A stretch of 64,000 bases of DNA from positions 62,001 to 126,000 of the forward strand of contig NZ_BCXI01000013.1 in NCBI RefSeq assembly GCF_001895025.1, read 5' to 3'. The notes beneath the pieces were generated by a model. It saw only the letters and a program-made list of their open reading frames with translations. It was not told where the DNA came from and did not search any database. Position 1 is the first letter of the stretch; each line of letters begins with the position of its first letter. The stretch is from Rhodococcus zopfii NBRC 100606 = JCM 9919. GTDB lineage: Bacteria; Actinomycetota; Actinomycetes; Mycobacteriales; Mycobacteriaceae. Positions 31,857-61,595 of the stretch are shown in pieces. The position numbers and the translations under genes were made by a program.

Positions 31857-31911
31857 GGTCAGCATCGATCGACCGCTCGCGGTCAGCATCGATCGACCGC
31901 TCGCGGTCAGC
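31857..31911. repeat. 24-base tandem duplication at the DUF6328/SDR junction
   Basis: GGTCAGCATCGATCGACCGC plus TCGC is present twice (31857-31880 and 31881-31904) with a third partial copy that contains the stop codon of the SDR gene. It belongs to the set of duplications at convergent gene ends. Confidence 0.85.
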
Positions 31912-32773
31912 CGGGCAGCGTCTCGCCCCCGATCGGCGCCAGCACCTCGCCGCTGTAGTACGACGACATCGTGTTCGACGCGAAGAACACATAGGACGGT
32001 GCGATCTCGTCGGGCTGCGCCGCGCGCCCGTACGGCGCCTGCTTGCCGAAGTCCGCGACCTTCCCTTCGTCGAGAGTGGCCGGGACCAACGGGGTCCACA
32101 CCGGCCCCGGCGCGACGCAGTTGACTCGAATTCCCCTGTCCTGCAAGGCCTGTGCGAGCGAGTAGGTCAGCGCCAGCACGGCGCCCTTGGTGGCCGCGTA
32201 GTCGATGAGTGTCTTGTTCCCGCGCAGCCCGTTGATCGAGGACGTGTTGATGATCGACGATCCGGACGGCAGGTGTTCGAGCGCGGCCCGCGTGACGTGG
32301 AAGAAGCTGTCGATGTTCACCGCGAACGTGCGGCGCCACTGCGCTTCGTCCAGATCGGCGAAGTCGTCGACCGGTTCCTGGTAGGCCACGTTGTTCACCA
32401 CGATCTGCAGACCCCCGAGCCGGTCGGCCGCCTCGGCCACCACCTCCCGGCAATGTGCCGGATCGGCGAGATCGCCCGGGAACAGGTGACACTCACGCCC
32501 TTCGCGCCGGACCAGCTCCGCGGTGTGCTCGGCGTCCCGGTCCTCTTCGAGATAGGCAATGGCGACATCCGCGCCTTCCTTGGCGAACGCGATCGCCACC
32601 GCGCGGCCGATCCCGGAGTCCCCGCCGGTGATCAGCGCCTTGCGTCCCTCGAGCAGTCCGCGACCGCGGTATCCGCGCATCTCGTCCTGGGGGGCGTCGG
32701 CCATGTCGGCGGTGTCGCCGGGGTAGTCGATCGTGTGCGGGGGATGTACGTGTTCCTGGTCATCGATGCTCAT
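31907..32773 (-). CDS. SDR family stress oxidoreductase (YghA/YhdF-like)
   Basis: A 288-residue short-chain dehydrogenase of the long-N-terminus type found in general-stress proteins such as Bacillus YdaD and YhdF. The N-terminal part (DEMRGYRGRGLLEGRKALIT) precedes TGGDSGIGRA, NNVAYQ, the catalytic Ser in INTSSING and YAATK. The substrate is unknown; sugar or aldehyde reduction is likely. GGTGT-N15-GGGTAT ends nine bases before the ATG, implying SigF-type leaderless expression, and it is divergent from the heme-oxygenase-like gene, which has the same arrangement. Confidence 0.88.
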   Translation of the reverse strand: MSIDDQEHVHPPHTIDYPGDTADMADAPQDEMRGYRGRGLLEGRKALITGGDSGIGRAVAIAFAKEGADVAIAYLEEDRDAEHTAELVRREGRECHLFPGDLADPAHCREVVAEAADRLGGLQIVVNNVAYQEPVDDFADLDEAQWRRTFAVNIDSFFHVTRAALEHLPSGSSIINTSSINGLRGNKTLIDYAATKGAVLALTYSLAQALQDRGIRVNCVAPGPVWTPLVPATLDEGKVADFGKQAPYGRAAQPDEIAPSYVFFASNTMSSYYSGEVLAPIGGETLPG

Positions 32774-32782
32774 GACCAGCGG

Positions 32783-32808
32783 ATACCCCTCGATACCCGG
32801 TTCACACC
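32783..32808 (-). promoter_or_regulatory. SigF-type promoter of the SDR gene
   Basis: Minus strand GGTGT (32804-32808), 15 bases, GGGTAT (32783-32788). The -10 box ends nine bases before the ATG. Confidence 0.6.
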
Positions 32809-32812
32809 CACC

Positions 32813-32839
32813 GGTTTCCTTTGGTCCCGGTCCGGGTAT
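32813..32839 (+). promoter_or_regulatory. SigF-type promoter of the heme-oxygenase-like gene
   Basis: GGTTT (32813-32817), 16 bases, GGGTAT (32834-32839), an exact match to the mycobacterial SigF consensus. The start codon follows nine bases after the -10 box. Confidence 0.75.
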
Positions 32840-32848
32840 CCGGCGGTC

Positions 32849-33865
32849 ATGCGTGATCCTGCCTCCGCCCCGCTGCCCCGGCCGCGCGGGCCGGTTTCCG
32901 ACGCCGTCATCACCCGGCTCGCCGGGACGCCGGACGAGTCGCCGTGGCCGCGGCCTCCCGCGGACGTCGACCCGTACGGCGACGATGCGCAGTTGACCCT
33001 GACGGTGCTGTACGAATTGCACTACCGGGGGTTTTCGGGCGTCGATCCCGGTTGGGAGTGGGCGCCGGGTCCGCTCGGTGTGCGGGCCGCGCTCGAACGG
33101 GCGTTCCTGGACCGCCTGCGCACCGACGTCCCGGCCGGTGTGGATGTCGACGCGACCTTCGATGCGGTGTGCCGGGAGCCGCGCGACGCATGGAGCGTGT
33201 CCCATCACCTGGCCGAGCAGGGCACGTGGCCGCAGTTGCGGGAGTACTTCGTGCACCGATCCATCTACCAGCTCAAGGAAGCCGATCCGCAGGCGTGGGC
33301 GATTCCGCGACTCACCGGCCGGGCCAAGGCGACGCTGGTGGCCGTCGAATTCGACGAGTACGGCGGCGGGCACCACGACCGTGTGCATGCGCAGCTGTTC
33401 GCCGATCTGATGGTCGCGGCCGGCCTGGACGACAGCTACCTGGGATGTCTCGACCGCGTACCCGCGCTGACCCTGGCGCCGGTGAACTTCATGTCGATGT
33501 GCGGGTTGCACCGGTCCCGCATCGGCATGCTCGTCGGCCAGTTCGCGGCCGCCGAGATGACGACCGGCCCGAGTGCGCGCCGGCTGGTGCGGGCGCTCGA
33601 ACGCCTGGAGGCCGCACCGGCGTGCGTGCGGTTCTATACCGAGCACGTCGAGGCGGATGCGGTGCACGAACTGGTGTTGCGGCACGACGTCGTCGGGGAC
33701 CTGCTCGAGCGCGATCCGGGCGCGGCACGCGACGTGGTGTTCGGGGCCGAGGCCATCGAGTTTCTCGAGGGCCGGCTCGGCAGCCACCTGCTCGACCGGT
33801 GGTCCCGCGACGAGTCATCGCTGCTCGAACCGGCAGAGCTGCTCGAAACCGAAGAGGCGACCTGA
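32849..33865 (+). CDS. Iron-containing redox enzyme, heme-oxygenase-like fold
   Basis: A 338-residue helical protein of the heme-oxygenase-like (Haem_oxygenas_2 / iron-containing redox enzyme) family. Possible metal ligands are Glu and His in VEFDEYGGGHHDRVHAQLF near residue 168 and in FYTEHVEADAVHE near residue 262. Relatives include diiron oxidases, so heme degradation should not be assumed. The N-terminal 90 residues are extra. The ATG at 32849 follows a consensus SigF-type promoter at the leaderless distance. It is divergent from the SDR gene. Confidence 0.75.
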   Translation: MRDPASAPLPRPRGPVSDAVITRLAGTPDESPWPRPPADVDPYGDDAQLTLTVLYELHYRGFSGVDPGWEWAPGPLGVRAALERAFLDRLRTDVPAGVDVDATFDAVCREPRDAWSVSHHLAEQGTWPQLREYFVHRSIYQLKEADPQAWAIPRLTGRAKATLVAVEFDEYGGGHHDRVHAQLFADLMVAAGLDDSYLGCLDRVPALTLAPVNFMSMCGLHRSRIGMLVGQFAAAEMTTGPSARRLVRALERLEAAPACVRFYTEHVEADAVHELVLRHDVVGDLLERDPGAARDVVFGAEAIEFLEGRLGSHLLDRWSRDESSLLEPAELLETEEAT

Positions 33866-33872
33866 GTCCCGT

Positions 33873-34366: not shown

Positions 34367-34392
34367 GGTTTGAAATGCCCTGATCGGGGTAT
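34367..34392 (+). promoter_or_regulatory. SigF-type promoter of the DUF6131 gene
   Basis: GGTTT (34367-34371), 15 bases, GGGTAT (34387-34392). Consensus match; it would give a leader of about 50 bases. Confidence 0.7.
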
Positions 34393-34448
34393 TCACTCCC
34401 ATCGTCCGAGCCAATTCGAGCACGGGCACCGACAGCAAGGTGACGATC

Positions 34449-34604
34449 ATGATCATCCTCGGCTTGATCCTGCTGGTGGTCGGATTCCTGACCGGGATCT
34501 CGATCCTGTGGACGCTCGGCATCATCCTCGTCGTGGTGGGCGTCATTCTGGCACTGCTCGGCGCCACCGGACGGGCGGTCGGTGGCCGCAAGTACTGGTA
34601 TTGA
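34449..34604 (+). CDS. DUF6131 family micro-membrane protein
   Basis: A 51-residue protein with two hydrophobic helices, MIILGLILLVVGFLTGISIL at the start and ILVVVGVILALLGATG after it, ending VGGRKYWY. This fits the DUF6131 family of small actinobacterial membrane proteins of unknown role. AAGGTGA lies six bases before the ATG and a consensus SigF-type promoter lies 57 bases upstream. It is too short for standard ORF cut-offs and easily missed. Confidence 0.75.
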   Translation: MIILGLILLVVGFLTGISILWTLGIILVVVGVILALLGATGRAVGGRKYWY

Positions 34605-34670: not shown

Positions 34671-34716
34671 CACCAGTCACCGCCGGGGCGTGCGCGCGCT
34701 CCGGCGGTGACTGGTG
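34671..34716. terminator. Bidirectional terminator, 16-bp stem
   Basis: CACCAGTCACCGCCGG and its perfect complement flank a 14-base loop. The stem overlaps the last codons and stop of the CDGSH gene and follows the convergent DUF6131 gene. Confidence 0.7.
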
Positions 34717-34907
34717 TCGCACAACGGATAGATGCCGCTGCGATGGCAGCGGCACACCGCGACCACGAAACGATCCGACGTCACTTCGGTGCCGTCCTCA
34801 CCCACAATCCGCACCGGTCCCTCGACGAGCATCGGGCCGCCCGGCACGAGCCGGACGGTCCGGGCGTCTGTTCGCAGGTCACCGGGTGTGTTCCGGTCGA
34901 TCGGCAC
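34677..34907 (-). CDS. CDGSH-type iron-sulfur protein
   Basis: A 76-residue protein with one CDGSH (mitoNEET-like) motif: CRCHRSGIYPLCDTSH, giving three Cys and one His for a redox-active 2Fe-2S cluster. It may sense or relay redox state. The GTG start at 34907 overlaps the end of the methyltransferase gene by 29 bases, so it is the last gene of a three-gene operon. The last residues (RRSARTPRR) are encoded in a terminator hairpin. Confidence 0.85.
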   Translation of the reverse strand: MPIDRNTPGDLRTDARTVRLVPGGPMLVEGPVRIVGEDGTEVTSDRFVVAVCRCHRSGIYPLCDTSHRRSARTPRR

Positions 34908-35577
34908 GGATCACCACCACTTCCTCGGTCTCGGTTCCGGCCTTGCTCTCGATCGCGACAACGGAAGCATCTGCCGCAGAATCTGTTCGACGGTGCTGCA
35001 GGTAGTCGGCACGACTGCGCATCACCGGGCCGAACGGTATCCGCTCCCGCGCGACCACGGTGGCTTTCACGCCGCCGGCCCGCAGCATGTCGAGCGTGGT
35101 GTCCACGCCGGTGAATTCGGAGTGCACGACGAGGGCGAATCCACCCGGCCGCAACAACTCCGGGATCTCCCGGCACAGCGGGTCGACGACGGAGCGCCCG
35201 TCGGGGCCGGCATCCCAGCGCGGGTCGTGAGCCCCACTGGGTGCCGGCACGTAGGGGGGATTCGAGACGATCACGTCGAACGGTGCGAGTCTGCGCGCAA
35301 CTCCGAGGCCGCCACGAAGAACCCTGATGGGCAGTCGCCGTGACCATGCGTTGAGCCGAGCGGTGAGTACCGCGCGGGGCGCGATATCCAGTGCCGTCAC
35401 CGATTTCGCGCCGGCCCGCGCCGCCGCAACCGCCAGGATTCCGGTGCCCGTGCAGAAGTCGAGGACCTTTGCGTCCGGGGGTGGACCGGCGCAGCCGAAG
35501 GCGTGCTCGAGCAGCCACGAATCCTCTTGCGGCCGGTACACACCCGGCATCCGCCATACCACTCCCGATCGCGTCAC
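34879..35577 (-). CDS. HemK/PrmC-like methyltransferase
   Basis: A 232-residue SAM-dependent methyltransferase with the N-terminal VYRPQEDSWLLEHAF, motif I VLDFCTGTGILAVAAA and the glutamine-methylation signature NPPYVP near residue 108, as in PrmC/HemK2 release-factor methyltransferases. The short length without the PrmC N-terminal domain suggests the HemK2/MTQ2 side of the family. The GTG at 35577 overlaps the stop of the upstream gene (TAGTG) and gives coupling; ATG at 35550 is an alternative. Substrate in vivo is not known. Confidence 0.8.
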   Translation of the reverse strand: MTRSGVVWRMPGVYRPQEDSWLLEHAFGCAGPPPDAKVLDFCTGTGILAVAAARAGAKSVTALDIAPRAVLTARLNAWSRRLPIRVLRGGLGVARRLAPFDVIVSNPPYVPAPSGAHDPRWDAGPDGRSVVDPLCREIPELLRPGGFALVVHSEFTGVDTTLDMLRAGGVKATVVARERIPFGPVMRSRADYLQHRRTDSAADASVVAIESKAGTETEEVVVIRADRPEHTR

Positions 35578-35843
35578 TACAGGACTCCAGGCTCGTGGGT
35601 GGAGGTGCCGCCGGATCCGCCCAGCCGGCGCCGCCGGAAGTTGAGAACGATCATCACTGCACCGACGACGAGGAGGGCGACGGCAACGATCGTTGCGACG
35701 GCCGTCCAGCCTTCGAAACCGCCTCCGGCAGCGGTCAGGACCAGAGCTATCGCGACGACACCCGCCAGGACACACGCAAACCCGACCCAGCCCGCGAGCC
35801 GGGTTCCCGTCGTGGGGCCACCGCGATTCGTTGTATTCGCCAT
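35577..35843 (-). CDS. Small two-helix membrane protein
   Basis: An 88-residue membrane protein with helices at about residues 17-41 and 47-68 and a basic tail (RRRRLGGSGG). No family was recognised. GGTTT-N16-GGGTAA ends eight bases before the ATG, so it is the first gene of a SigF-type, probably leaderless operon with the HemK-like and CDGSH genes; its stop overlaps the next start. Divergent from the aldo-keto reductase gene. Confidence 0.7.
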   Translation of the reverse strand: MANTTNRGGPTTGTRLAGWVGFACVLAGVVAIALVLTAAGGGFEGWTAVATIVAVALLVVGAVMIVLNFRRRRLGGSGGTSTHEPGVL

Positions 35844-35851
35844 GCGGGCGG

Positions 35852-35878
35852 TTACCCATCCGTGCGGTCACCGAAACC
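35852..35878 (-). promoter_or_regulatory. SigF-type promoter of the small membrane protein-HemK-CDGSH operon
   Basis: Minus strand GGTTT (35874-35878), 16 bases, GGGTAA (35852-35857), ending eight bases before the ATG. Confidence 0.65.
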
Positions 35879-36841: not shown

Positions 36842-37501
36842 GTGACCGACTACGACGATTTCGACATGTTCGGCGGCCTCGACGCCTCGTCCCTGCCGCT
36901 GCGTCAGCAGCAGATCCTGGCGGTGATCCGGGACTGGGCGGCGGCCAACGGATGTGCGCCGAGCACCCGGCAGATCGGGGATGCGGTCGGACTGCGGTCG
37001 ACGTCGTCGGTGTCCAAACATCTCCGCAGCCTCGAGGACAAGGGGTTCCTGCGGCGGGGTTCGGCGGTGGCGCGCCAGCTGGATGTGCGCCCGTTCCTCG
37101 CCGCATCGGCTCCGGCCGGGTCCGACCGGACGGTCGCGGTTCCGGTCGTAGGCGACATCGCGGCCGGGATGCCGATACTCGCCGAGCAGCACACCGACGA
37201 CGTGCTGGCGCTGCCGCGCGAGCTCGTCGGTTCCGGCACGGTGTTCGGCTTGCGGGTGCGTGGCGATTCGATGGTCGACGCGGCGATCTGCGACGGTGAC
37301 GTCGTGGTGGTGCGGCAGCAGAGCGAGGCGCATTCGGGCGAGATCGTGGCCGCGATGATCGACGGCGAGGCCACCGTCAAGGTACTGCGCCGGCGCAACG
37401 GGCATGTGCAGCTCGAGCCCCGGAATTCTGCGTATCCGGTTCTCGACGGTGATGGCGCCGTCGTGCTGGGCAAGGTGGTGTCGGTGATGCGGCGGATCTG
37501 A
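36842..37501 (+). CDS. lexA: LexA-family repressor
   Basis: A 219-residue LexA: a winged helix-turn-helix (residues 20-80, [19 protein letters not shown]) and an S24 self-cleaving domain. The cleavage site is in DIAAGMPI, the catalytic Ser in [13 protein letters not shown] and the Lys in EATVKVLRR; all are present, so RecA-triggered cleavage is expected. The N-terminus ([12 protein letters not shown]) differs from the usual actinobacterial LexA, and the spacer is short. It may be a second LexA paralogue; the rest of the genome is not visible. No SOS box was seen before its GTG start. Confidence 0.8.
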
Positions 37502-40358: not shown

Positions 40359-40385
40359 CGTTTTCTCCCATGGCTTCCGGGGTAC
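40359..40385 (+). promoter_or_regulatory. SigF-type promoter of the DUF2231 gene
   Basis: CGTTT (40359-40363), 16 bases, GGGTAC (40380-40385), ending nine bases before the ATG. Confidence 0.6.
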
Positions 40386-40394: not shown

Positions 40395-41033
40395 ATGTCC
40401 ACGTCGAACATCTCCACACAGACTCCCCATCGTTCCCCGCCGCTCGCACGACTGCTCGAGAGCACCGAATCGGCGTCCTGGCTCGACCGTCCCGCGACGA
40501 GGGTCCGCGCACTGGTGCGGCCGCTCGCCGACGGCCCGGCCGGGGGCGTGCTGCGCGGCGACTTCCTCGGCCATCCGCTGCATCCCGCACTGGTGGCGGT
40601 CCCTATCGGCGCATGGTCCTCGGCAGCGGTCTTCGATCTGGTCTTCCGCCGCCCGGATGCGGCCCGGCGCCTGCTGGGAATCGGCCTGGCCGCGACCCCG
40701 CCGACGCTGGCCACCGGATGGTCCGACTGGTCCCGGTGCACCACGGTCCAGCGGCGAGTCGGTCTGATCCACGCGGTGACGAATGCCGCGGGCATCGCGC
40801 TGACGGCCGCGTCCTATCGACGCCGGCGGTGCGCCTCCGAATCCTCGGCGTCCGCGGTGGCGCTGAGCCTCGCCGGTCTCGGGCTGATCGGTGTCGGCGG
40901 CACGCTCGGCGGGCACCTGGCATACGTCCTCGGCGCCAGGGTGTCACCGCACGCGGACGTGCCCGATGCCGAGGCGAACGGTCCCGCATACGATCCCGTG
41001 CTCGCCGAACCGGTCACGCCGGCAGATCGGTGA
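40395..41033 (+). CDS. DUF2231 domain-containing membrane protein
   Basis: A 212-residue protein with the DUF2231 domain, four membrane helices starting near GHPLHPALVAVPIGAWSSAAV (the family signature around residue 57), and a helical cap of 45 residues before it. Members are thought to be heme- or redox-linked membrane proteins, but the role is unknown. A SigF-type promoter places its -10 box nine bases before the ATG at 40395. It is convergent with the alcohol dehydrogenase gene. Confidence 0.8.
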   Translation: MSTSNISTQTPHRSPPLARLLESTESASWLDRPATRVRALVRPLADGPAGGVLRGDFLGHPLHPALVAVPIGAWSSAAVFDLVFRRPDAARRLLGIGLAATPPTLATGWSDWSRCTTVQRRVGLIHAVTNAAGIALTAASYRRRRCASESSASAVALSLAGLGLIGVGGTLGGHLAYVLGARVSPHADVPDAEANGPAYDPVLAEPVTPADR

Positions 41034-41058: not shown

Positions 41059-42240
41059 TCAGGGTTCGAGGAGGATCTTCACGGCCCCGTCCGCCTTGCG
41101 CTGGAAGATGTCGTAGGCGTGGGGTGCCTCGGACAGCGGGAGCCGGTGCGTGGCGAACGTGTCGACGCCGAGCGGATCATCGTCGGTGAGCAGGGGGATG
41201 ATCTCCGGCACCCAGCGATTCACGTTGGCCTGCCCCATGCGCAGCGTGATCTGCTTGTCGAACAGGGTGAGCATGGGCAGCGGGTCGGCCGCGCCGCCGT
41301 ACACGCCGCTGAGCGAGATGGTGCCGCCGCGCCGCACCACGTCGATCGCGCTGTAGAGGGCGGCGAGCCGGTCGACGCCTGCCTTCTGCATCAGCGGTTC
41401 GGCGATCGCCGACGGCAGCAACCCGGCCGCGGTCTGGGCCAGTTTCGCCACGGGACTGCCGTGCGCCTCCATGCCGACCGCGTCGATCACGGAGTCGGTG
41501 CCGCGCCCGTCGGTGAGGTCACGGATCCGGTCGCCGAGTGCACCGTCGGTCCCGTTCAGGTCGATCGTCTCGATTCCCCGGGCGTCGGCGCGGGCCAGAC
41601 GCTCCGGCACGAGGTCGACGCCGATGACCCGGGCACCTCGATGGTGCGCGATCCGGGCGGACATGTCGCCGATCGGACCGAGGCCGAGGACCGTGACCGT
41701 GCCACCCTCGGGAATGTCGGCGTACTCGACCGCCTGCCATGCGGTCGGCAGCACGTCGGACAGGTATACGAACCGGGAATCGGGCGGACCGTCGGGAACC
41801 GTGATGTGCGTGGACTGTGCATGCGGGACCCGCAGGTACTCCGCCTGGCCACCGGGAACACTTCCGTACAGCTTCGAGTATCCGAACAACGCTGCCCCGC
41901 TGCCATATTCGCGCACCTGGGTTGTCTCGCACTGTGAGAACAGGCCGTGCCCGCACATGAAGCAGCCGCCGCACGAGACCTGGAACGGGATCACGACCCG
42001 GTCCCCGGCCTTCAGGTTCGTCACCTCGCTGCCAACTTCCTCGACGATCCCCATCGGTTCGTGTCCGAGGATGTCGCCCGGCGTCATGAACGCGCCGAGC
42101 ACCTCGTACAGGTGCAGATCCGAGCCGCAGATGTTGGTGGTGGTGACGCGGACGACGGCGTCGGTCGGCTCCTCGATCCGCGGGTCCGGCACCGTACCGA
42201 CCTCGACCTTGCGCTTGCCCTGCCACGTCACGGCCTTCAT
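41059..42240 (-). CDS. Zinc-dependent alcohol dehydrogenase (formaldehyde dehydrogenase-like)
   Basis: A 393-residue medium-chain dehydrogenase of the glutathione-independent formaldehyde dehydrogenase type. Catalytic zinc ligands are in NICGSDLH and GHEPMG; structural zinc in CGGCFMCGHGLFSQC; NAD-binding GLGPIG near residue 180; and VDLVPERL for NAD preference. Length fits FdhA-like enzymes. Such genes are frequent in stress islands and may clear aldehydes. A 17-base duplication covers the start codon region (42233-42266), so the translation start is at 42240 and an upstream ATG leads to a quick stop. Confidence 0.85.
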   Translation of the reverse strand: MKAVTWQGKRKVEVGTVPDPRIEEPTDAVVRVTTTNICGSDLHLYEVLGAFMTPGDILGHEPMGIVEEVGSEVTNLKAGDRVVIPFQVSCGGCFMCGHGLFSQCETTQVREYGSGAALFGYSKLYGSVPGGQAEYLRVPHAQSTHITVPDGPPDSRFVYLSDVLPTAWQAVEYADIPEGGTVTVLGLGPIGDMSARIAHHRGARVIGVDLVPERLARADARGIETIDLNGTDGALGDRIRDLTDGRGTDSVIDAVGMEAHGSPVAKLAQTAAGLLPSAIAEPLMQKAGVDRLAALYSAIDVVRRGGTISLSGVYGGAADPLPMLTLFDKQITLRMGQANVNRWVPEIIPLLTDDDPLGVDTFATHRLPLSEAPHAYDIFQRKADGAVKILLEP

Positions 42241-42266: not shown

Positions 42267-42327
42267 CTTCCCGGTTCTTCTCCGGCCTGGTTCGTTCCTG
42301 TCCTCGATTACCGCCGAGCGGTGCCGT

Positions 42328-42474
42328 TCAAACGCCCCGGAGCCACCCGACGGGAGTCGCGCTCGCCGGAGCACTGACGGTCGCCGTCGCCGCGGCGCCG
42401 AGGTAGGCGAAACGGCGGCCACGCCGCACCCGCCGGATACCGGACGAGGTGGTCACGCTGCGCCGCAACCTCAT
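42328..42474 (-). CDS. Possible 48-residue basic peptide
   Basis: A short frame, MRLRRSVTTSSGIRRVRRGR then FAYLGAAATATVSAPASATP, with GGAGGGA five bases before the ATG. The start is very Arg-rich and the rest Ala-rich, which could be a small membrane or DNA-binding peptide. The ribosome site and GC-rich third positions support it, but there is no recognised family. Confidence 0.3.
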   Translation of the reverse strand: MRLRRSVTTSSGIRRVRRGRRFAYLGAAATATVSAPASATPVGWLRGV

Positions 42475-42557
42475 CCGTCCCTCCACTCGACGCGTTCCGT
42501 CTTCGGAGGAATATCCGGATTGGGCCTCTCCTACACTCCCGCCCCGCGGGTACCCGG

Positions 42558-42582
42558 TGTTTCCCCACCCGGTTGCGGGTAC
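42558..42582 (+). promoter_or_regulatory. SigF-type promoter of the DJ-1/PfpI gene
   Basis: TGTTT (42558-42562), 14 bases, GGGTAC (42577-42582). It would give a leader of about 25 bases with AAGGA before the start. Confidence 0.55.
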
Positions 42583-43874: not shown

Positions 43875-43901
43875 CTACCCGTTCGATCTCACCGGTAAAC
43901 C
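43875..43901 (-). promoter_or_regulatory. SigF-type promoter of dps
   Basis: Minus strand GGTTT (43897-43901), 16 bases, GGGTAG (43875-43880), about 70 bases upstream of the ATG. Confidence 0.65.
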
Positions 43902-47243: not shown

Positions 47244-47250
47244 GGACCCC

Positions 47251-47626: not shown

Positions 47627-47652
47627 GGTTTGCCGGTCGAGTCTGGGGGTAG
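47627..47652 (+). promoter_or_regulatory. SigF-type promoter of katE
   Basis: GGTTT (47627-47631), 15 bases, GGGTAG (47647-47652), with a leader of about 50 bases. Confidence 0.7.
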
Positions 47653-50885: not shown

Positions 50886-50891
50886 ATACCC
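50886..50891 (-). promoter_or_regulatory. SigF-type -10 box before ppx
   Basis: GGGTAT on the minus strand, nine bases before GTG. The -35 match is weak (GTGTG at N15). Confidence 0.4.
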
Positions 50892-50929
50892 GTTCGGGGT
50901 GGTGACCACACTCGATTCGCGCGATCGTT

Positions 50930-52424: not shown

Positions 52425-52453
52425 ACCGGCGGCGGGTTCGATTCGTCGCCACC

Positions 52454-52459
52454 GGGTAT
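52454..52459 (+). promoter_or_regulatory. SigF-type -10 box of the 27-residue gene
   Basis: GGGTAT, with GGTTC 14 bases upstream (52435-52439). The -10 box ends nine bases before the ATG at 52469, the same leaderless distance as other island genes. Confidence 0.5.
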
Positions 52460-52583: not shown

Positions 52584-52615
52584 AGCACAGAATCACGGCA
52601 GCACAGAGTCACGGC
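52584..52615. repeat. 16-base tandem duplication at the 27-aa/PRC-like junction
   Basis: AGCACAGAATCACGGC is followed by AGCACAGAGTCACGGC. The second copy contains the stop codon of the minus-strand gene. Confidence 0.8.
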
Positions 52616-52926
52616 AGCGCGGGCGCGAACTTGCGGTACCCGTCGCGCACTTCGACCCGCCCGTCCCCGATGCGTCGCACATCGGCCCATCGGACCAGGA
52701 ACGCACCCCGGTGCCGCCATCGCAGATAGCGTGCGATCAGCGCGGGAGCGTCGACCGAACGCCGTTCGTAACCGAGGAACGAGCCACCGGACCTAGGGCT
52801 GACCAGCAGCGCCACCAGGGTCAGGCTCATGCCCTCGTCGTAGCTGAACCGGACGTCGACGACCGTGCCGAGACGGTGGCCCCCGCCGTCTCGGGCTTGC
52901 GCACCGATGATCTCACTCAGCCGCAC
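52609..52926 (-). CDS. PRC-barrel-like small protein
   Basis: A 105-residue protein. The start MRLSEIIGAQARDGGGHRLG followed by TVVDVRF resembles the beta-barrel of PRC domains, which bind ribosome maturation or photosynthetic complexes and also occur in bacterial stress proteins. It overlaps the end of the upstream gene by 14 bases and is the last gene of the lipoprotein-NRAMP operon. The function is unknown. Confidence 0.5.
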   Translation of the reverse strand: MRLSEIIGAQARDGGGHRLGTVVDVRFSYDEGMSLTLVALLVSPRSGGSFLGYERRSVDAPALIARYLRWRHRGAFLVRWADVRRIGDGRVEVRDGYRKFAPALP

Positions 52927-53317
52927 GACGACCTCCGGGGATGCGTCCGATGAGGCGGTCGCGGGTCCACCGTTCGACCCACAGGTGGTCGAGATCCTCG
53001 CCGCGCACGTTCAGGTGCACCGCAACGTCGATGCGATCGACGTCGGTCCAGTCGATGCGGTCCAGCCGCGAGTCCGGTGGCCTGCCACCGAAGATGCGGG
53101 TCGGCAGCGCGTTGCCGCTCAGGATGGCCTCCACCCGGGGCGGCGCCGACCCGGCCGGGATCTCCCGGCCCGCTTCGACGCCGTCGAGTTCCAGATCGTC
53201 GACGGTCGTGACCGGAAGGCCGTCGACGTCGACGAGGAGCCGGTCCAGCAAGTGCAGCCGCGCGTCGAGGACTCGGCCGTCGGCCGGCAGCGGAGGTAGT
53301 GCGTCGGATTCGGTCAT
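52913..53317 (-). CDS. PRC-barrel-like protein
   Basis: A 134-residue protein with a likely PRC-type barrel at the start (VLDARLHLLDRLLVDVDGLP then VTTVDDLEL) and another beta stretch toward the end (RIDVAVHLNVRGEDLDHLWV). The ATG overlaps the stop of the NRAMP gene as ATGA, so it is translated together with the transporter. The two barrel proteins may bind to its cytoplasmic face or couple to metal sensing; this is inference. Confidence 0.5.
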   Translation of the reverse strand: MTESDALPPLPADGRVLDARLHLLDRLLVDVDGLPVTTVDDLELDGVEAGREIPAGSAPPRVEAILSGNALPTRIFGGRPPDSRLDRIDWTDVDRIDVAVHLNVRGEDLDHLWVERWTRDRLIGRIPGGRRAAE

Positions 53318-54543
53318 GCACCCGCTCCCGTCATGATCAGCAGGGGTACCGCAGCGGCCGCGACCACGAGGATCACGGGCACGTAAGCCAGTGCGAATGC
53401 GTTGACGATCCGGCCGTTGACGTGCTCGCCCATGTACTCGGGGTCGTTCGCGACGATGAGGATCGGAATGTAGGTCAAGGGCAGCGCCACGGCCGAGAAC
53501 ACCACCGAAACCTCGGTCACCAGAACGGGATCGACACCGGTGGCGAGGACCGCGAGTCCGACGAGCAGCGACACGATCATCACGAGATGGAAGCGGGCGG
53601 CGTTCGCAGGCGCCCGGAACTTGCCCCACCGCCAGCCGAAGAACTGCGCGAGCGTGTAACCACTGGAAAGCGTCGTCTCGAGGGCGGCGCCGAAGGTCGC
53701 GGCGACGATCCCGACGATCGCGAACGCCAGCGCCAGCCGACCGCCGGCCTCCGCCACGGGCAGCGCGATCTGGGAGAGGGATTCGACGGCGATACTCTGC
53801 GGAAGCAGCACCACCGCGGCGCATGCGGCCACGGACAACGACAGGACCCCGCCGAGCGGGAAGCCGACGAGCACATTGAGCCGGGACTTACCCAGATCGT
53901 CGACGGTCCACTTCTCCTCCACCGCGCCCGACGAGAAGAAGAACACCTCGTACGGCGTCATCGCCGCACCGAACAACGCGACCGCATAGAACCAGTACAC
54001 CGACGTCGATTCCGATGCGGGGACGGCCGGGGCGAGGATCTGTTCGCCGAGTTCGCCCCAGTCGGGCCCTAGCAGGAACAACACGACCGCGAACACGATC
54101 AGGCACAGGCCGGCCAGTCCGGTGGCATTCTCCATGACGGTGAAACGCACCCGCCAGATCACGAGCCACACCGCGAACCCCGCAACGGGCAGCCACATCA
54201 TCGGCCCGATCCCGGACGCGAGTTGCAGCGCCAGCGCGATGCCGCCGACCTCGGCGGTGAGCGTCATGAGATTGATGAGGAACGACGCTGCGAGGTTCGC
54301 CAGCGCAGAGCGAGCGCCGAGACGCTCACGGACGATCTCGAACGTCGCGCGCCCACTGACCGCGGCGACCCGTCCGGCCATGTTGGCGTACAGGCAGATT
54401 CCCCCGACGCCGAGCACGACGACCCAGGCCAGACTCAGGCCGAACCGAGACCCGACAACGGCGTTGGTGACCAGATCCCCGATGTCGAGGAATCCGCCGA
54501 TGGCGGTGAGAACGCCGAGTGCGACGGCGAACAGCTTCGTCAC
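53314..54543 (-). CDS. NRAMP-like transporter with altered metal site
   Basis: A 409-residue membrane protein with eleven helices in the NRAMP (Mn/Fe transporter) fold. Helix 1 has FLDIGDLVTNAVVGS where canonical NRAMPs have DPGN, and helix 6 has MTPYEVFFFSS in place of the MPH motif; both are metal-coordinating sites. This suggests another substrate, such as Mg, Al or Ca, as in NRMT-type relatives. GTG 54543 overlaps the upstream lipoprotein stop (GTGA), with GGAGAAGG upstream. Part of a four-gene operon. Confidence 0.8.
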   Translation of the reverse strand: MTKLFAVALGVLTAIGGFLDIGDLVTNAVVGSRFGLSLAWVVVLGVGGICLYANMAGRVAAVSGRATFEIVRERLGARSALANLAASFLINLMTLTAEVGGIALALQLASGIGPMMWLPVAGFAVWLVIWRVRFTVMENATGLAGLCLIVFAVVLFLLGPDWGELGEQILAPAVPASESTSVYWFYAVALFGAAMTPYEVFFFSSGAVEEKWTVDDLGKSRLNVLVGFPLGGVLSLSVAACAAVVLLPQSIAVESLSQIALPVAEAGGRLALAFAIVGIVAATFGAALETTLSSGYTLAQFFGWRWGKFRAPANAARFHLVMIVSLLVGLAVLATGVDPVLVTEVSVVFSAVALPLTYIPILIVANDPEYMGEHVNGRIVNAFALAYVPVILVVAAAAVPLLIMTGAGA

Positions 54544-54983
54544 CGGGCACCTTCTCCGAACGCCGACAGGGTGTCGGTGAGCCGGCCGAGTTCCTGGTCC
54601 AGGGATGCCGCGTCCGGCGAACCCGGCACGCCGGCGACGTGCCCGCGGGCCTCGCCGAGCACGGATGCCGCGTCGTCGAGGTAACCGAGAAGCACGTCCT
54701 GATGTCCGGATTCGTCCTGCGACGACGTCTCGGCCGTAGCCGCGGCGCTGTAGGAGGTGAGCACCGACTCGAGGGCCTCGTCGAGCACCACCTCGGCGTG
54801 GTTTCCGGTGGTGCGGTGCGCGGCCACCAGCGACAGACCGAGTCGCGCCGACGCGGTCGCCGAGGCCGCATCCGCGGCCGCCCTCGACAGGTCGCCTTCC
54901 GTTCCGCCCGGCAGACCCGAGCAGCCGCAGGACAGAGACACGGCGACCAGTCCTGCGACCACGCCTCGACGCCAACGCAACAC
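54540..54983 (-). CDS. Lipoprotein heading the NRAMP-like operon
   Basis: A 147-residue lipoprotein: signal peptide and lipobox LSCGCSG (Cys near residue 21), then an Ala-rich helical domain (LVAAHRTTGNHAEVVLDEAL and YLDDAASVLGEARGHV), possibly a ferritin-like four-helix bundle of the DUF4439/DUF305 kind. AGGAGG lies six bases before the GTG at 54983, which fixes the start; an upstream GTG at 55004 lacks a ribosome site. Its stop overlaps the transporter start. Confidence 0.65.
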   Translation of the reverse strand: MLRWRRGVVAGLVAVSLSCGCSGLPGGTEGDLSRAAADAASATASARLGLSLVAAHRTTGNHAEVVLDEALESVLTSYSAAATAETSSQDESGHQDVLLGYLDDAASVLGEARGHVAGVPGSPDAASLDQELGRLTDTLSAFGEGAR

Positions 54984-55129
54984 CGGGAACCTCCTGAGCT
55001 GCACCGCCGCATGTGGTGGGTACCGGAGTACCCGCGCCCGGGGTTTTCAATCCGTGTGGTCGGTTTTGTGCCCGGTCACGGGCGGGGGCACTGCGCTCGC
55101 GGAAAGGTTCCGCCCGGCATAATCGTGAA

Positions 55130-55855
55130 ATGACCGATTCCACCCCCGACGCCCGCGCGGCCGAGCACCCGTGCCCGGACAGGCCACCGCGTCCGGACAG
55201 GCCACAGCGGGTGGGCAGCTTCCGGTTCATCGTCGCCACCGACGAGTGGGAGTGGTCCGACGCAGTGGCCAGAATGCACGGATACGAGCCCGGCACCGTA
55301 CACCCGACAACAGAACTGGTTCTGTCCCACAAGCATCCGGACGACCTGGCGCAGATCACCGAGGTGTTGAACTCCCAGCGCACGACCGGCAGACCGTTCA
55401 GCAGCCGGCACCGGATCATCGATACCGACGGAAACGTCAAGCAGGTCGTCGTGGTCGGCGACCAGCTGCTCGACGCGGCCGGCACGGTCATCGGGACGTC
55501 CGGGTTCTACGTCGACCTCACCGACAGCTACGCGGACGACATCCGCGAGAACGTCGACGAAGCACTGTCCACTCTCGCCGAGTCACGCGCGATCATCGAG
55601 CAGGCCAAGGGGGTGCTGATGCTCGTGTACGGGATTTCCGCCGATCACGCATTCGAGATACTCACCTGGCGGTCGCAGGAGACCAACATCAAGCTCCGGG
55701 CGCTCGCTCAGCGGATCGTGGACATCGTTGCCGAGGGATCGGGACCCAGAATTTCCGACTCCGCGCGCAACGAGTTCGACCACTTCCTGATGACCGTGCA
55801 CCGGACGGTGCCGCACCCGGATCACTCGGTGACCCGCACCGAATCCGGCTCCTAG
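55130..55855 (+). CDS. PAS-ANTAR RNA-binding regulator
   Basis: A 241-residue regulator: a PAS domain at about residues 25-130 (WEWSDAVARMHGYEPGTV) and an ANTAR domain at the end (IIEQAKGVLMLVYGISADHA). ANTAR proteins bind RNA hairpins and prevent termination. The N-terminal linker holds an in-frame duplication (PDRPPRPDRPQR). CATAAT lies six bases before the ATG at 55130, so a leaderless start is likely. It is convergent with the hemerythrin gene. The signal detected by the PAS domain is unknown. Confidence 0.88.
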   Translation: MTDSTPDARAAEHPCPDRPPRPDRPQRVGSFRFIVATDEWEWSDAVARMHGYEPGTVHPTTELVLSHKHPDDLAQITEVLNSQRTTGRPFSSRHRIIDTDGNVKQVVVVGDQLLDAAGTVIGTSGFYVDLTDSYADDIRENVDEALSTLAESRAIIEQAKGVLMLVYGISADHAFEILTWRSQETNIKLRALAQRIVDIVAEGSGPRISDSARNEFDHFLMTVHRTVPHPDHSVTRTESGS

Positions 55856-55893: not shown

Positions 55894-56469
55894 TCACCGT
55901 TCGGTTCCGCGCCGGGTCACCGCGTCACGCATGCGATCGAGCAGGCCGGTGACCGGGCCGAGCAGCTTGTCGCCCGGCGGTTCGTCCGGGGCGGACGGGT
56001 GCGGCCGCGTCGGAGCGATCTTTTTCGTCGATTCCACCTTCCTGCCGAGGTCGACCAACTCCTCCTCGGTGAAAACGCTGCGCATGTGCGGGAACATTTC
56101 GCTCTCTTCCTCGGCGACATGTTCGCGGATCTCGTGCATCAGCAATGCGAGCTGGGCTTCGAACTCCGGCTCGTCCGGCTTCAGCCCCTCGAGCCGCTTC
56201 ATCGTCCGCTCGGCTTCGGCGTGCTCCTCCTTGGCGTGTTCGGCCTCGCTCTCGCTGACCTTCTTCTTGACGGCCGGATACACGTCGGCCTCCTCCGCGA
56301 CCGAGTGCCGCACCAGCTCGATCGTCACCTGATCGGTGAGATCCTTGCGCCGCTGCCGCGCCTCGTGGGTTTCGATGCCGTGGAGTGCCTCGAGTTCGGC
56401 GAACATCCGTTCCACTTCGCGGTGATCGTGGGTGAGGACCTCGATCACGTCGCGCTGGCTCGCTGTCAT
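55894..56469 (-). CDS. Hemerythrin HHE domain protein
   Basis: A 191-residue hemerythrin-like protein: the diiron ligands are in LTHDHREVERMFAELE, VRHSVAEEADVYPAV and MHEIREHVAEEESEMFPHMR. Such proteins bind oxygen, handle iron, or protect from nitric oxide; in mycobacteria one is part of the SigF response to peroxide. GGGAAGG precedes the ATG and GGTTT-N15-GGGTTA lies 40 bases upstream. The C-terminus is a disordered charged tail. Confidence 0.9.
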   Translation of the reverse strand: MTASQRDVIEVLTHDHREVERMFAELEALHGIETHEARQRRKDLTDQVTIELVRHSVAEEADVYPAVKKKVSESEAEHAKEEHAEAERTMKRLEGLKPDEPEFEAQLALLMHEIREHVAEEESEMFPHMRSVFTEEELVDLGRKVESTKKIAPTRPHPSAPDEPPGDKLLGPVTGLLDRMRDAVTRRGTER

Positions 56470-56505: not shown

Positions 56506-56531
56506 TAACCCCTTCTGCTTCAGCGGAAACC
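56506..56531 (-). promoter_or_regulatory. SigF-type promoter of the hemerythrin gene
   Basis: Minus strand GGTTT (56527-56531), 15 bases, GGGTTA (56506-56511), with a leader of about 30 bases. Confidence 0.6.
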
Positions 56532-56579: not shown

Positions 56580-57008
56580 CTACGCGTAGTGCCGGCCTTC
56601 CCGGCCGGTGCCGCCCTCGTCCGCCCGCACGTCCCGCTGCGGTTCCGTGTCGACCGACGACGGAGCCTGGGCGTCGGGATCGAGGCGGTCGGCGCGCTCA
56701 CGCTGTTCGTCCAGCGCACTGCGGGTCGATTCGGCTTCCTCCCGCTGCACCTTCGCACGGTTCTCCAGGCGGACCGCCTCGGCCTGCTTCTCGGAGGCCT
56801 CCGCGGCGGCCCGGCGGGCCTTGGCGGCGGTCTCGTCGGCGATGGCCGCGCGCTGTTCGGCGGCCGGTGCGCGTTCGGCGATCTGTGCACGAAGGTGAGC
56901 CGCTTCGGTGCGGCGATGCTGTGTCCGGCGCCTGGTCAGCAGCCATACCAGCAGCAGTACGACGATGACGACGACGACTGCCAGCACTATCCAGCCCAAC
57001 GTATCCAT
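56580..57008 (-). CDS. Membrane-anchored coiled-coil protein
   Basis: A 142-residue protein with one N-terminal membrane helix (LGWIVLAVVVVIVVLLLVWL) then a long charged helix rich in Ala, Glu, Arg (residues 35-100) and a disordered acidic end. No family was recognised; it resembles small stress-island proteins with an antenna-like coil. GGTTT-N16-GGGTAT, an exact SigF-type match, lies upstream. The ATG at 57008 has GGAGGATT before it. Confidence 0.65.
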   Translation of the reverse strand: MDTLGWIVLAVVVVIVVLLLVWLLTRRRTQHRRTEAAHLRAQIAERAPAAEQRAAIADETAAKARRAAAEASEKQAEAVRLENRAKVQREEAESTRSALDEQRERADRLDPDAQAPSSVDTEPQRDVRADEGGTGREGRHYA

Positions 57009-57043: not shown

Positions 57044-57070
57044 ATACCCGCCGACTCGAATCCGGAAACC
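57044..57070 (-). promoter_or_regulatory. SigF-type promoter of the coiled-coil gene
   Basis: Minus strand GGTTT (57066-57070), 16 bases, GGGTAT (57044-57049), with a leader of about 28 bases. Confidence 0.75.
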
Positions 57071-58965: not shown

Positions 58966-59382
58966 TCACGCTGAACGCCGAAGCGCTCCCATCGCACTCT
59001 CGAGCGATGTATGCAGTTGCAGACGGGTCTCCCCCGCGGCGAGCAACAGCCGTTGCACCGGGCGGTTCCCGACGAGCACCCACCGTGCGTCGCACTGGTG
59101 CGCTCTCGCGTCGAGACCCTCGAACACCGAAAGCCCTGCGGATCCGATGAATTCGACTTCGGACAGGTCGAGCACCATCCGAGCGGACGGACGCAGCCGC
59201 GCGCTGGCGTAGCGCCGCAGCGCCGGGGCGTTGAGCAGGTCGATCTCGCCCTGCACCTCGACCCTCATCATGTCACCGCTGATCCGCTCGGTCTTGAAGC
59301 GCGCACCGGCGGATGTTTCGTCGGGCACGCCCGCGCGGGCAGCCCAACGTGTCGCGGCACGGAAATTGGGTACAGCAGTCAT
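58966..59382 (-). CDS. STAS anti-anti-sigma factor
   Basis: A 138-residue STAS protein of the RsbV/SpoIIAA type. After a 30-residue tail the domain holds MRVEVQGEIDLLNAPALRRY and LDLSEVEFIGSAGLSVFEGL; the Ser of GSAG is the usual phosphorylation site for the anti-sigma kinase. When unphosphorylated it would bind and remove the RsbW-like protein encoded 1 kb away. The GGGAG ribosome site lies in a 9-bp inverted repeat just before the ATG. Its own promoter is unclear. Confidence 0.88.
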   Translation of the reverse strand: MTAVPNFRAATRWAARAGVPDETSAGARFKTERISGDMMRVEVQGEIDLLNAPALRRYASARLRPSARMVLDLSEVEFIGSAGLSVFEGLDARAHQCDARWVLVGNRPVQRLLLAAGETRLQLHTSLESAMGALRRSA

Positions 59383-59406: not shown

Positions 59407-59535
59407 AGAATCGCAGAAAGGGGCAGCCGTCCACGGATGCCCGCTCGCGCGATGCTTCCTGGTCCAGGCTGTGTGCTCAACCTTCAAACAGGCTACTTCA
59501 GTCGGCAGCACCACTCAACGAAAGGCCGCGAGATA

Positions 59536-60258
59536 TCACAATTCGGACTCGCCGGCGGTTCGTCTCAGCGTTTCAACCACCTGTTTCGCCACGCCCGACA
59601 GCCGGAGGTTCATCCGCTGGGATGCCTCCCTGAGCAATGTGAACGCCTCTTCCTCGGACGTCTCGTGCAGTGCCATGAGCAGTCCAATCGCCTTCCCGAT
59701 CTCCCGGTTGCTGTCGAGACCCAGACGCAGGGTGGCCGCTTGCTCCCGGTGTGCCCTCGCGGTCAGCGCCACCGAAATGAACGCAGCAAGGACCGCACCC
59801 GAGTCGAGCGACTCCTCGGTCAACGCGTCCGGGGTGTCGGAGAAGATGTTGAGGGCCGCGACATCCGCACCCTCCACGAGCAGGCGGAATCCCGCTGCTC
59901 CCCGAACCGGCGTGTAGTCGAGAATCCACTTGGTCAGCGCGGGCCAGCGGGTTCGGACGGTCAGGTCCGCATCGAGTTCCGCGATGTCGTGGTGCAGCAC
60001 GTCCATGCACGGGCCTTCGCCGAGTTCACGTTCGGCAGCGTCGATTCGGCGGGCCATGTCGTCACCGGCCGCGATGGTGCGGATCGACGTCCCACGCCGG
60101 AGCATCAGACTCGCCCGATCGCAACCGGGGACGAGCAGCGGAGCGGCAATGCACAGCGCGGCACACATCTCCTCGTAGCTCTCGGTGCCGTACACGATCC
60201 CCGCGAGCCTCGTGAAGACGGCCGCGGCCTCCTGGCGCTGTGCATCCTGGTTGCTCAT
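59536..60258 (-). CDS. GAF-ANTAR RNA-binding regulator
   Basis: A 240-residue regulator: a GAF domain (residues 15-160) and an ANTAR domain (EIGKAIGLLMALHETSEEEA, then QRMNLRLSGVAKQVVETLRR). ANTAR proteins bind twin RNA hairpins and act against termination. The start at 60258 is followed by a divergent RsbW-sigF operon. The DNA between this gene and rsbW holds a GGGTAT box for the other direction. The GAF ligand is unknown. It is the second ANTAR protein of the island. Confidence 0.88.
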   Translation of the reverse strand: MSNQDAQRQEAAAVFTRLAGIVYGTESYEEMCAALCIAAPLLVPGCDRASLMLRRGTSIRTIAAGDDMARRIDAAERELGEGPCMDVLHHDIAELDADLTVRTRWPALTKWILDYTPVRGAAGFRLLVEGADVAALNIFSDTPDALTEESLDSGAVLAAFISVALTARAHREQAATLRLGLDSNREIGKAIGLLMALHETSEEEAFTLLREASQRMNLRLSGVAKQVVETLRRTAGESEL

Positions 60259-60280
60259 CCGAATCACCTTTCGCGGTAGC

Positions 60281-60306
60281 GATTGATTCACCACCTTCCT
60301 GGGTAT
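60281..60306 (+). promoter_or_regulatory. SigF-type promoter of the rsbW-sigF operon
   Basis: GATTG (60281-60285), 15 bases, GGGTAT (60301-60306), about 80 bases upstream of the anti-sigma gene. The -35 is weaker than in other cases. It would let the sigma factor activate its own operon. Confidence 0.5.
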
Positions 60307-60384
60307 TCTGCGCTCGAACGGGAGATGCCGGCTCACGTCGACCCCGGGCACCGACCGAGAATCCGACTGGAAAGGCCAGGACCC

Positions 60385-60813
60385 ATGGCGACGACCGCTT
60401 CGATCGACTCAGATCGCGCACACACGCATCCCATCGTGGAGTTGCGCGTCCGCGCCGACCCGGGCCAACTCCCGGTGCTGCGAGCCGTCGCCGCCGCGAT
60501 CGCGCTCCAGCACGACTGCGATCTCGATACCGTCGCCGATGTGAAGCTCGCCGTGGACGAAGCCGCCACGCGCCTGATCATGAGTGCGGTCGACGGAACC
60601 GACGTGACGTGCCGCTTCCAGACGATCGCGCCGACCCTGCGCATCAGTGTCTCCGCCACGACCCGGCCCTCCCCCACCAGTTCGGCCCGCACGTTCGGCT
60701 GGCACGTCCTCAACTCCCTCGCCGATTCGGTGGACGTGCGCCTCGACGACACCGCGTCCGGCAGCGTCACCACCATCGACCTGTCGGTCACCGAAGGGAG
60801 CGCCCCTCGGTGA
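60385..60813 (+). CDS. rsbW: RsbW-type anti-sigma factor (serine kinase)
   Basis: A 142-residue anti-sigma factor with a GHKL ATP-binding fold like RsbW, SpoIIAB and UsfX. The N-box region is DVKLAVDEAATRLIMSAV near residue 52, and a late ATP-lid part is ARTFGWHVLNSLADSVDV. It would hold the sigma factor, or phosphorylate the STAS protein. The ATG at 60385 has AGGACCC before it. Its stop overlaps the GTG of the sigma gene (GTGA), so the two proteins are made in step. Confidence 0.85.
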   Translation: MATTASIDSDRAHTHPIVELRVRADPGQLPVLRAVAAAIALQHDCDLDTVADVKLAVDEAATRLIMSAVDGTDVTCRFQTIAPTLRISVSATTRPSPTSSARTFGWHVLNSLADSVDVRLDDTASGSVTTIDLSVTEGSAPR

Positions 60814-61595
60814 GCGGACACAGGCGCGACCCCGACGAGTACGCCGACGTCCTCGAGCTGTTCACCGAGATCGGGTCCCACAGTGCGGACGACCCGGCCC
60901 GTGCGGAACTGCGCGAGAAGATCGTCGAGCGATGCCTGCCGCTCGCCGAACACATCGCGCGTCGTTTCGACGGGCGCGGGGAAGCGTTCGACGATCTGGT
61001 GCAGGTAGCACGGCTCGGCCTGGTCAACGCCGTGGACCGGTTCGATCCGGAACGCGGCTCGGACTTCGTGTCGTTCGCCGTCCCCACGATCATGGGCGAG
61101 GTACGACGGCACTTCCGCGACACCGGGTGGGCGGTGCGGGTTCCGCGCCGGATGAAGGAACTCCACATCGCCCTGAACAAGGCGACCGGCGAACTGTCGC
61201 AGCGGCTCGGTCGTGCACCCACCGTCGGGGAGCTGGCCGCCGAGCTGGACCTGGACCGCGAGGAGGTCGCCGAGGGCCTGGTCGCCGGGAACGCCTACCA
61301 GACCGTGTCGGTCGATCGCAGCGCGCAGACCGATTCCGGCGGGAACGGCGTCACCCTCGCCGACACGCTCGGCGAGTACGACGCCGCGCTGTCCGAAGTC
61401 GAGAACCACGAGACATTGCGCCCTCTGCTGGAGGCGCTGCCCGAACGCGAACGCACGGTGGTGCTGCTGCGGTTCTTCGGGAACATGACGCAGACGCAGA
61501 TCGCCGAGCGGGTCGGCGTTTCCCAGATGCACGTCTCACGGCTGCTCACCAAGACCCTGGCCCAGTTGCGTGAGCAACTCGGCGACCAGTTCTGA
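60810..61595 (+). CDS. sigF: SigF/SigB-family stress sigma factor
   Basis: A 261-residue sigma factor of the SigB/SigF/SigG group: region 2 has FDDLVQVARLGLVNAVDRFD and VSFAVPTIMGEVRRHFRD, region 3 LNKATGELSQRLGRAP, region 4 MTQTQIAERVGVSQMHVSRL for the -35 contact. Such sigmas recognise GTTT...GGGTA promoters, the type found before many genes here. GTG 60810 overlaps the rsbW stop. With rsbW and the STAS gene it forms a partner-switching module controlling the stress island. Confidence 0.93.
   Translation: MSGHRRDPDEYADVLELFTEIGSHSADDPARAELREKIVERCLPLAEHIARRFDGRGEAFDDLVQVARLGLVNAVDRFDPERGSDFVSFAVPTIMGEVRRHFRDTGWAVRVPRRMKELHIALNKATGELSQRLGRAPTVGELAAELDLDREEVAEGLVAGNAYQTVSVDRSAQTDSGGNGVTLADTLGEYDAALSEVENHETLRPLLEALPERERTVVLLRFFGNMTQTQIAERVGVSQMHVSRLLTKTLAQLREQLGDQF

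Follow-up and report, generated by a model that had tools for sequence, protein, structure and literature searches.

The closest described relative of the system reported here is a stress response gene cluster of Mycobacterium smegmatis, MSMEG_1750-1804, tied to the sigma factor gene sigF in the available part of one study (PMC5445863); by our own count in Table 1 of another, available in part, a sigF mutant shows reduced expression of 28 genes of MSMEG_1758-1804 in each of the two growth phases (PMC4694148). The SigF consensus and regulon have been published (excerpts of PMC4694148, PMC7693655, and PMC7390352), with the consensus given as GGWWT-N16-17-GGGTAY (PMC7693655, same excerpt). In R. 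erythropolis under light, the accessible text reports protein rises of 2.4-fold for SigF and 2.6-fold for KatE at 40 h, with Dps unchanged (0.98), while at 122 h Dps was 2.0-fold up and KatE unchanged (PMC9416670). We describe here a SigF locus in a window of 64,000 nucleotides (the whole stretch of DNA analysed) from Rhodococcus zopfii NBRC 100606, corresponding to C13:62001-126000 of a 6.3-Mb genome in 146 contigs. Positions 31857-61595 of the window (29.7 kb) are called the island below. Judged from sequence, its gene-bearing span, 31907-61595, is very probably a general-stress cluster of Rhodococcus built around a mycobacterial-type SigF; the closest named SigF comes from Rhodococcus phenolicus DSM 44812 (95% identity).

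An earlier note on this DNA had proposed a SigF-type regulon clustered beside sigF and suggested comparing its motif density with that of the genome at large. Sites were scored with a matrix typed from 47 M. smegmatis SigF-regulon promoters (Table 1 of PMC4694148, as far as available), which is independent of the island sites and was chosen to avoid circularity. These promoters were hand-picked in the GTTT/GTGT/GTTG/GTTC register, mostly at most 100 bp from the start; entries in other registers or farther away were excluded, and overlapping matches were merged before counting. The background was 797 kb of the same genome, taken as stretches of six contigs chosen for convenience. At a score of at least 13, the island holds 20 sites where 1.93 are expected (Poisson P = 3e-14), compared with 1 across the window's other 34 kb and 53 in the background; at a score of at least 15, it holds 17 against 0.68 expected. 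A gene start is faced by 16 of the 20 and by 14 of the 17. Exact patterns gave the same picture: the island contains 6 of the 17 genome-wide matches to GGTTT-N13-17-GGGTA (P = 1e-10; 4 for the backward control), 7 of the 28 matches to GTTT-N15-16-GGGTA in the 6.3-Mb genome (P = 6e-11; control 6), and 4 of 22 matches to GGWWT-N15-17-GGGTAY, the published consensus with widened spacing (P = 3e-6; control 2). At least two of the 28 are presumably ribosomal RNA sequence, as their repeated pairing in other genomes also suggests. For GGTGT-N14-17-GGGTA, 5 of 48 matches fall in the island (P = 3e-6), one of them (57157+) inside a gene, and the control count of 24 implies that about half of the matches are due to chance. 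The densest among 40 background stretches, counted per 20 kb at a score of at least 13, were C10:1-20000 with seven sites and C10:80001-100000 with five.

The second line of evidence is the footprint against a close relative, G015. All 26 island matches scoring at least 11 could be aligned; 18 point towards a gene start 14-135 bases away, and eight do not. In the 18, 160 of 162 motif bases are kept vs 193 of 282 spacer bases (Fisher P = 6e-18), and 16 sites keep all nine motif bases. The eight unowned sites lack this contrast, with 62 of 72 motif bases and 102 of 124 spacer bases unchanged (P = 0.55); six of the eight are intragenic, where spacers are constrained as well. The 18/8 division follows gene positions and was scripted after the G015 alignments were known, with ppx counted among the 18 from its re-set start. 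The fourteen sites listed in the earlier note are all present, each facing its gene at 14-135 bases, including the weaker rsbW-sigF one. Missing from that list were four further gene-facing sites (ADH, 80-residue protein, ppx, and lipoprotein-NRAMP operon), which were fixed before any alignment. Only two of the 18 score as low as 12.0-12.4 (rsbW and the lipoprotein operon). The regulon proposal is thus strongly supported by enrichment, by footprint conservation, and by the six relatives described below. Seven matches (40911+, 43450-, 48048+, 50133-, 50978+, 57511-, and 59368+) were dropped as promoters, facing no gene and having a broken motif in G015; a small RNA from 59368+ was likewise dropped, the motif being altered there. 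Candidate 52454+ (52435-52459; GGTTC-N14 or GGGTT-N15, then GGGTAT) keeps nine of nine motif bases in G015 and faces no called gene. Match 35925+, before an aldo-keto reductase gene and with a spacer of 13, was left out of the count.

By our own count, with co-oriented neighbours joined, the 18 sites could supply 26 of the 38 island genes. Genes were called with our own codon-score script, the short-chain dehydrogenase (SDR) and haem-oxygenase-like genes then being placed by hand, and families were assigned by Pfam and NCBIfam profile matches. The first -10 base lies 14-135 nucleotides ahead of the start codon (median 46, 17 gene-facing sites). At the outer edge, the SDR gene (31907-32773, minus strand; PF13561) is preceded by GGTGT-N15-GGGTAT (32783-32808, minus), kept in G015. 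The iron-containing, haem-oxygenase-like redox enzyme HO2 (32849-33865, plus; PF14518) has GGTTT-N16-GGGTAT (32813-32839, plus), and G005, G006, G008, G009, and G014 have a site there too. GGTTT-N15-GGGTAT (34367-34392, plus) precedes the Pfam-assigned gene of a DUF6131 small membrane protein of 54 residues (34440-34604, plus). GGTTT-N16-GGGTAA (35852-35878, minus), with a site at equal distance in six of six relatives, stands before a probable operon (34677-35843, minus) for an 88-residue membrane protein, a HemK2/MTQ2-type methyltransferase (34879-35550, minus; TIGR00537, 98.2 bits, cut-off 87), and a CDGSH iron-sulphur protein (34677-34907, minus; Pfam).

Further inward, the DUF2231 gene (40515-41033; Pfam, as are the genes that follow up to hemerythrin, unless stated) has CGTTT-N16-GGGTAC (40359-40385, plus); the zinc-type alcohol dehydrogenase gene ADH (41059-42240), CGTTT-N16-CGGTAA (42308-42334, -10 at 42313, minus); the PfpI/DJ-1 gene (42614-43171), GGTGT-N16-GGGTAC (42556-42582, plus); and dps (43261-43803; Ferritin), GGTTT-N16-GGGTAG (43875-43901, minus). 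GGTTG-N15-GGGTAG (46051-46076, minus) lies before a CsbD-like gene (45774-46010) whose CsbD Pfam match is under the curated cut-off, and GGTGT-N16-GGGTAT occurs before both the DUF6480 gene (46092-46346; site 46386-46412, minus) and the DUF6292 gene (46392-46814; site 46870-46896, minus). CGTTT-N16-GGGCAC (46941-46967, -10 at 46962, plus) faces the genes of an 80-residue Cys-rich protein and a 139-residue membrane protein (47001-47616), neither of which matched a Pfam family. The katE gene (47707-49845), of the catalase HPII type by Pfam and with an NCBIfam match of 1016 bits under the model cut-off of 1102, has GGTTT-N15-GGGTAG (47627-47652, plus). The Ppx/GppA phosphatase gene (ppx, start re-set to the GTG at 50876) has AGTGT-N16-GGGTAT (50886-50912, -10 at 50891, minus), and a lipoprotein-like-NRAMP-134-residue-PRC operon (52609-54962) has GGATT-N15-GGGTAC (score 12.4; 55028-55053, -10 at 55033, minus), with one -35 base changed in G015. 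GGTTT-N15-GGGTTA (56506-56531, minus) precedes the hemerythrin gene (55894-56469) and GGTTT-N16-GGGTAT (57044-57070, minus) a coiled-coil membrane protein gene (56580-57008). At the other edge, CGATT-N16-GGGTAT (score 12.0; 60280-60306, -10 at 60301-60306, plus) precedes rsbW (60385-60813, plus), encoding an RsbW-type anti-sigma factor of 142 residues (PF13581), and sigF (60810-61595, plus), encoding a SigB/SigF-type sigma factor (NCBIfam NF005514, 429.5 bits, cut-off 372). The rsbW start was moved by eye from 60436 to the ATG at 60385, the Pfam match having been made on the 60436 version. The two genes overlap, rsbW ending at 60813 and sigF starting at 60810, as an operon with its own site. 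Two neighbouring genes without a SigF site, both Pfam-assigned, encode a STAS protein, a candidate anti-sigma antagonist (58966-59328, minus), and a GAF-ANTAR protein divergent from rsbW (59536-60258, minus). At the starts 32773, 32849, 35843, and 50876, the -10 lies just 14-15 bases away, so these transcripts would be nearly leaderless.

Gene order was compared among genus members. G015 carries 37 of the 38 island genes, the exception being DUF2834. Five others (G005, G006, G008, G009, and G014), close kin that amount to about one independent case, have an island version of about 19 kb with changed order, comprising genes for SDR, HO2, the small membrane protein, Dps, DUF6131, CDGSH, HemK2-type methyltransferase, PfpI, OtsA, a 66-residue protein, the 139-residue membrane protein, STAS, RsbW, and SigF. 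In these, the small membrane protein gene stands apart from HemK2-type-CDGSH, with dps separating it from DUF6131. Sites scoring at least 9 stand in all five before HO2, DUF6131, the HemK2-type gene, the small membrane protein gene, PfpI, dps, the 66-residue gene, and rsbW (as GGATT or TGATT-N15-GGGTA), and in four of five before the 139-residue gene. In all seven genomes, site counts drop sharply past sigF and past the SDR-HO2 edge, and sigF, rsbW, and the gene downstream are retained in all six relatives examined. Comparison of gene order, which the earlier note had suggested, thus shows a compact island that was kept in relatives and reordered in five, with many promoters kept. Because relatives altered the order yet kept many promoters, the cluster appears to be held through linkage of separate gene-plus-promoter units.

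Several results weigh against reading the whole island as a SigF unit. No site scoring at least 11 lies within 250 bases of 12 of the 38 genes, namely those for DUF5709, AKR, a LexA-like protein, a multicopper oxidase, OtsA, an OKR decarboxylase, PAS-ANTAR, an alpha/beta hydrolase, MarR, DUF2834, STAS, and GAF-ANTAR, PAS-ANTAR alone having a weak site (score 9.2). The earlier proposal that about 30 kb is all under SigF is therefore too wide, with 26 genes plausibly served by the 18 sites. Four of the 20 island sites scoring at least 13 face no gene, the strict published spacing GGWWT-N16-17-GGGTAY places only 2 of 13 matches in the island (P = 0.002), and the exact-pattern counts contain chance and ribosomal RNA matches. 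In the five reordered members, no site scoring at least 9 precedes SDR, OtsA, or CDGSH, and two of them lack the STAS site, which scores unevenly in the other three, so the promoters are not universally kept. The six synteny relatives represent about two clades and not six independent cases.

The presence of a second sigma factor of the same type is also on this side of the balance. A protein search found a paralogue, SigF2 (C3:146548-147366, 52% identical), also beside SigF-type sites, which could read some island sites. Promoters of the SigB/SigF family might then be read partly or mainly by SigF2, or by both factors, and in Streptomyces, the available part of one report describes SigB homologues cross-recognising almost all of 24 tested promoters (PMC8346170). 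However, a second SigF match (E <= 1e-40) occurs in only 3 of 18 genus genomes (G000, G004, and G015), and five other members keep the island and its sites. A by-hand comparison of the recognition stretches of SigF and SigF2 (28 of 48 and 19 of 32 identical) does not settle the question. We regard such a reading of the promoters by SigF2 as unlikely; of the earlier claim of one sigma factor, the identity of sigF stands by its match to the SigF model, and single-factor control is not established. A recently acquired foreign island bringing its own sigma factor could account for the roughly 10 kb of genes in the window genome and G015 that are missing from the islands of the five other members. 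This is quite improbable, given an island GC content of 67.8% against a background mean of 68.9%, tetranucleotide distances of 0.088 and 0.102 that fall between the background median (0.077) and its 90% point (0.130), the absence of tRNA genes from 25000-64000 (integrases had no dedicated search), and the retention of sigF, rsbW, and the downstream gene in six of six relatives. A GC-rich motif common everywhere and selected by eye is a negligible explanation, for although eight of the 26 island matches scoring at least 11 face no gene and seven of those lose the motif in G015, the excess over the same genome and the conservation of motif over spacer refute chance for the gene-facing 18 taken together.

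The regulators bear on how a SigF-centred cluster might be controlled. The N-box of GHKL kinases has the form Glu-x3-Asn. The island RsbW lacks its Asn (EAATR), as do 59 of 59 RsbW matches from 80 named sigF loci; the earlier note had correctly placed sigF, RsbW, and a STAS protein at the cluster end, and its naming of RsbW as a kinase is, on these motifs, probably wrong. In the STAS protein, the residue at the usual phosphoserine position differs among relatives, being Ser, Thr, Ala, or another residue, and this variation argues against phosphorylation as the means of control. A region elsewhere in the genome, C3:142259-147366, encodes SigF2 together with two STAS-RsbW pairs (N-box EALAN), a further RsbW-like protein that lacks the Asn, and an Hsp20-like protein, and a SigF-type site precedes the first of the pairs; the two RsbW labels come from Pfam, and those of STAS, Hsp20, and the third RsbW from our own reading of translations. 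In M. smegmatis, as the accessible portion of the report has it, RsbW2 retains the N, G1, and G2 motifs and RsfB is phosphorylated only by RsbW2 (PMC7693655). By analogy, STAS antagonists phosphorylated by the C3 kinases may act on the island RsbW. In unstressed cells, RsbW from the same operon would hold SigF, and an antagonist, either the local STAS protein or the pairs elsewhere in the manner of RsfB-RsbW2, would release it. Free SigF would then start transcription at the 18 island promoters of the GGTTT/GGTGT-N15/16-GGGTA type, its own included, and at others elsewhere, giving more catalase, Dps, hemerythrin, redox enzymes, metal handling, and small membrane proteins.

Across the family Mycobacteriaceae, SigF-like genes (E <= 1e-60) were found in at least 105 of 151 genomes and at least 22 of 31 genera, and the HemK2-type gene (E <= 1e-40) in 103 genomes and 22 genera. 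At least 38 of the 87 genomes with both listed have the two genes no more than 30 kb apart, where random placement would give about 1.5. Outside the genus of the window, linkage was seen in at least 28 of 77 genomes, and linked pairs turn up in at least 12 of 19 genera, with none in seven among the matches listed; g11 and g6 gave 0 of 9 genomes each, likewise among matches listed. In several genomes, the linked neighbour is a second SigF-like gene and not the best match, and HemK2-type matches outside the genus are 44-62% identical and may therefore include paralogues. Six genomes of other genera resemble the island near sigF to differing degrees: G151 has DUF6131, ADH, and CsbD homologues with sites, plus the HemK2-type gene; G155 has CsbD with a site and homologues of NRAMP, PRC, and PAS-ANTAR; and the remaining four have few island homologues. 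The best sigF of G155 is about 1.6 Mb away from a HemK2-type-CDGSH-HO2-hemerythrin group that has sites. G138 has nine exact sites in 37 kb (C1:800796-837667), about 2 Mb from sigF, and likeness to island proteins there is confined to a KatE-like gene that has a site and a weak SDR match; SigF-type sites can therefore cluster away from sigF. At 65 of the 80 named sigF loci (15 shorter ones were dropped), sites scoring at least 13 averaged 3.1 in the 10 kb upstream of sigF vs 1.4 downstream, upstream being richer in 41, downstream in 8, with 16 ties; judged by these means, part of Rhodococcus shows pronounced dense clustering, and many others show it weakly. Tentatively, and with somewhat more doubt than belief, we suggest that SigF targets are selected to stay near sigF as movable gene-plus-promoter units, repeatedly reshuffled and undispersed in many Mycobacteriaceae, and that the HemK2-type methyltransferase-CDGSH pair, as the most persistent, may be a core part of the SigF response.

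The locus offers a compact and testable Rhodococcus SigF regulon with 18 promoters and 26 genes named, ties several unnamed small proteins to the predicted SigF response, and provides a case in which to ask what keeps the targets of an alternative sigma factor close to the gene that encodes it. The repeated HemK2-type/sigF-like linkage suggests that the stress response includes a protein-modification step that has yet to be studied. Among other features, two ANTAR-domain proteins lie at the sigF end, PAS-ANTAR (55211-55855) and GAF-ANTAR (59536-60258); ANTAR domains are usually RNA-binding. No Rfam family reached its gathering score in 31000-62000. The LexA-family protein at 36842-37501 is a second copy (200 bits), the stronger being at C12:19262-19906 (260 bits); two simple patterns found no SOS-box-like match in the window, and the LexA-like gene also has no SigF site.

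The literature found contains no account of this cluster in Rhodococcus, of its promoter map, or of HemK2 linkage, subscription papers being mostly outside the search. As far as the available sources describe MSMEG_1750-1804, the island resembles it in having sigF at the edge, an rsbW-sigF operon, and many separate promoters (GTTT-N15-17-GGGTA), as well as a putative methylase, dehydrogenases, and small proteins. Compared by annotation alone, the gene content overlaps with MSMEG_1758-1804 only in part, the agreeing annotations being methylase, short-chain dehydrogenase type, dehydrogenase, RsbW, and SigF. UsfY copies and chaB belong to the M. smegmatis cluster, and no family so named appeared in the Pfam scans here, which included no search aimed at them. 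This island includes the katE, dps, ppx, NRAMP, and hemerythrin genes, whereas KatA, the starvation-induced DNA protecting protein, and the hemerythrins of the M. smegmatis SigF list, in its available part, have locus numbers far from 1804. Bacillus SigB and Streptomyces SigB-SigF share the sigma family (TIGR02980), a similar promoter consensus, and partner-switch regulators with this system, and differ in that RsbW here lacks the kinase N-box Asn. The M. smegmatis RsbW1/RsfA/RsfB/RsbW2 system, in the portion available, likewise has an anti-sigma factor encoded with sigF and without kinase activity, matching the missing N-box Asn of the island protein, and separate STAS-kinase pairs elsewhere (PMC7693655); unlike in that partner switch, the pairs here adjoin a second SigF gene. 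The island is thus well supported as a further case of a known cluster type and not a new kind of system, what is new being the linkage of a HemK2-type methyltransferase gene to sigF and the promoter map of this member.

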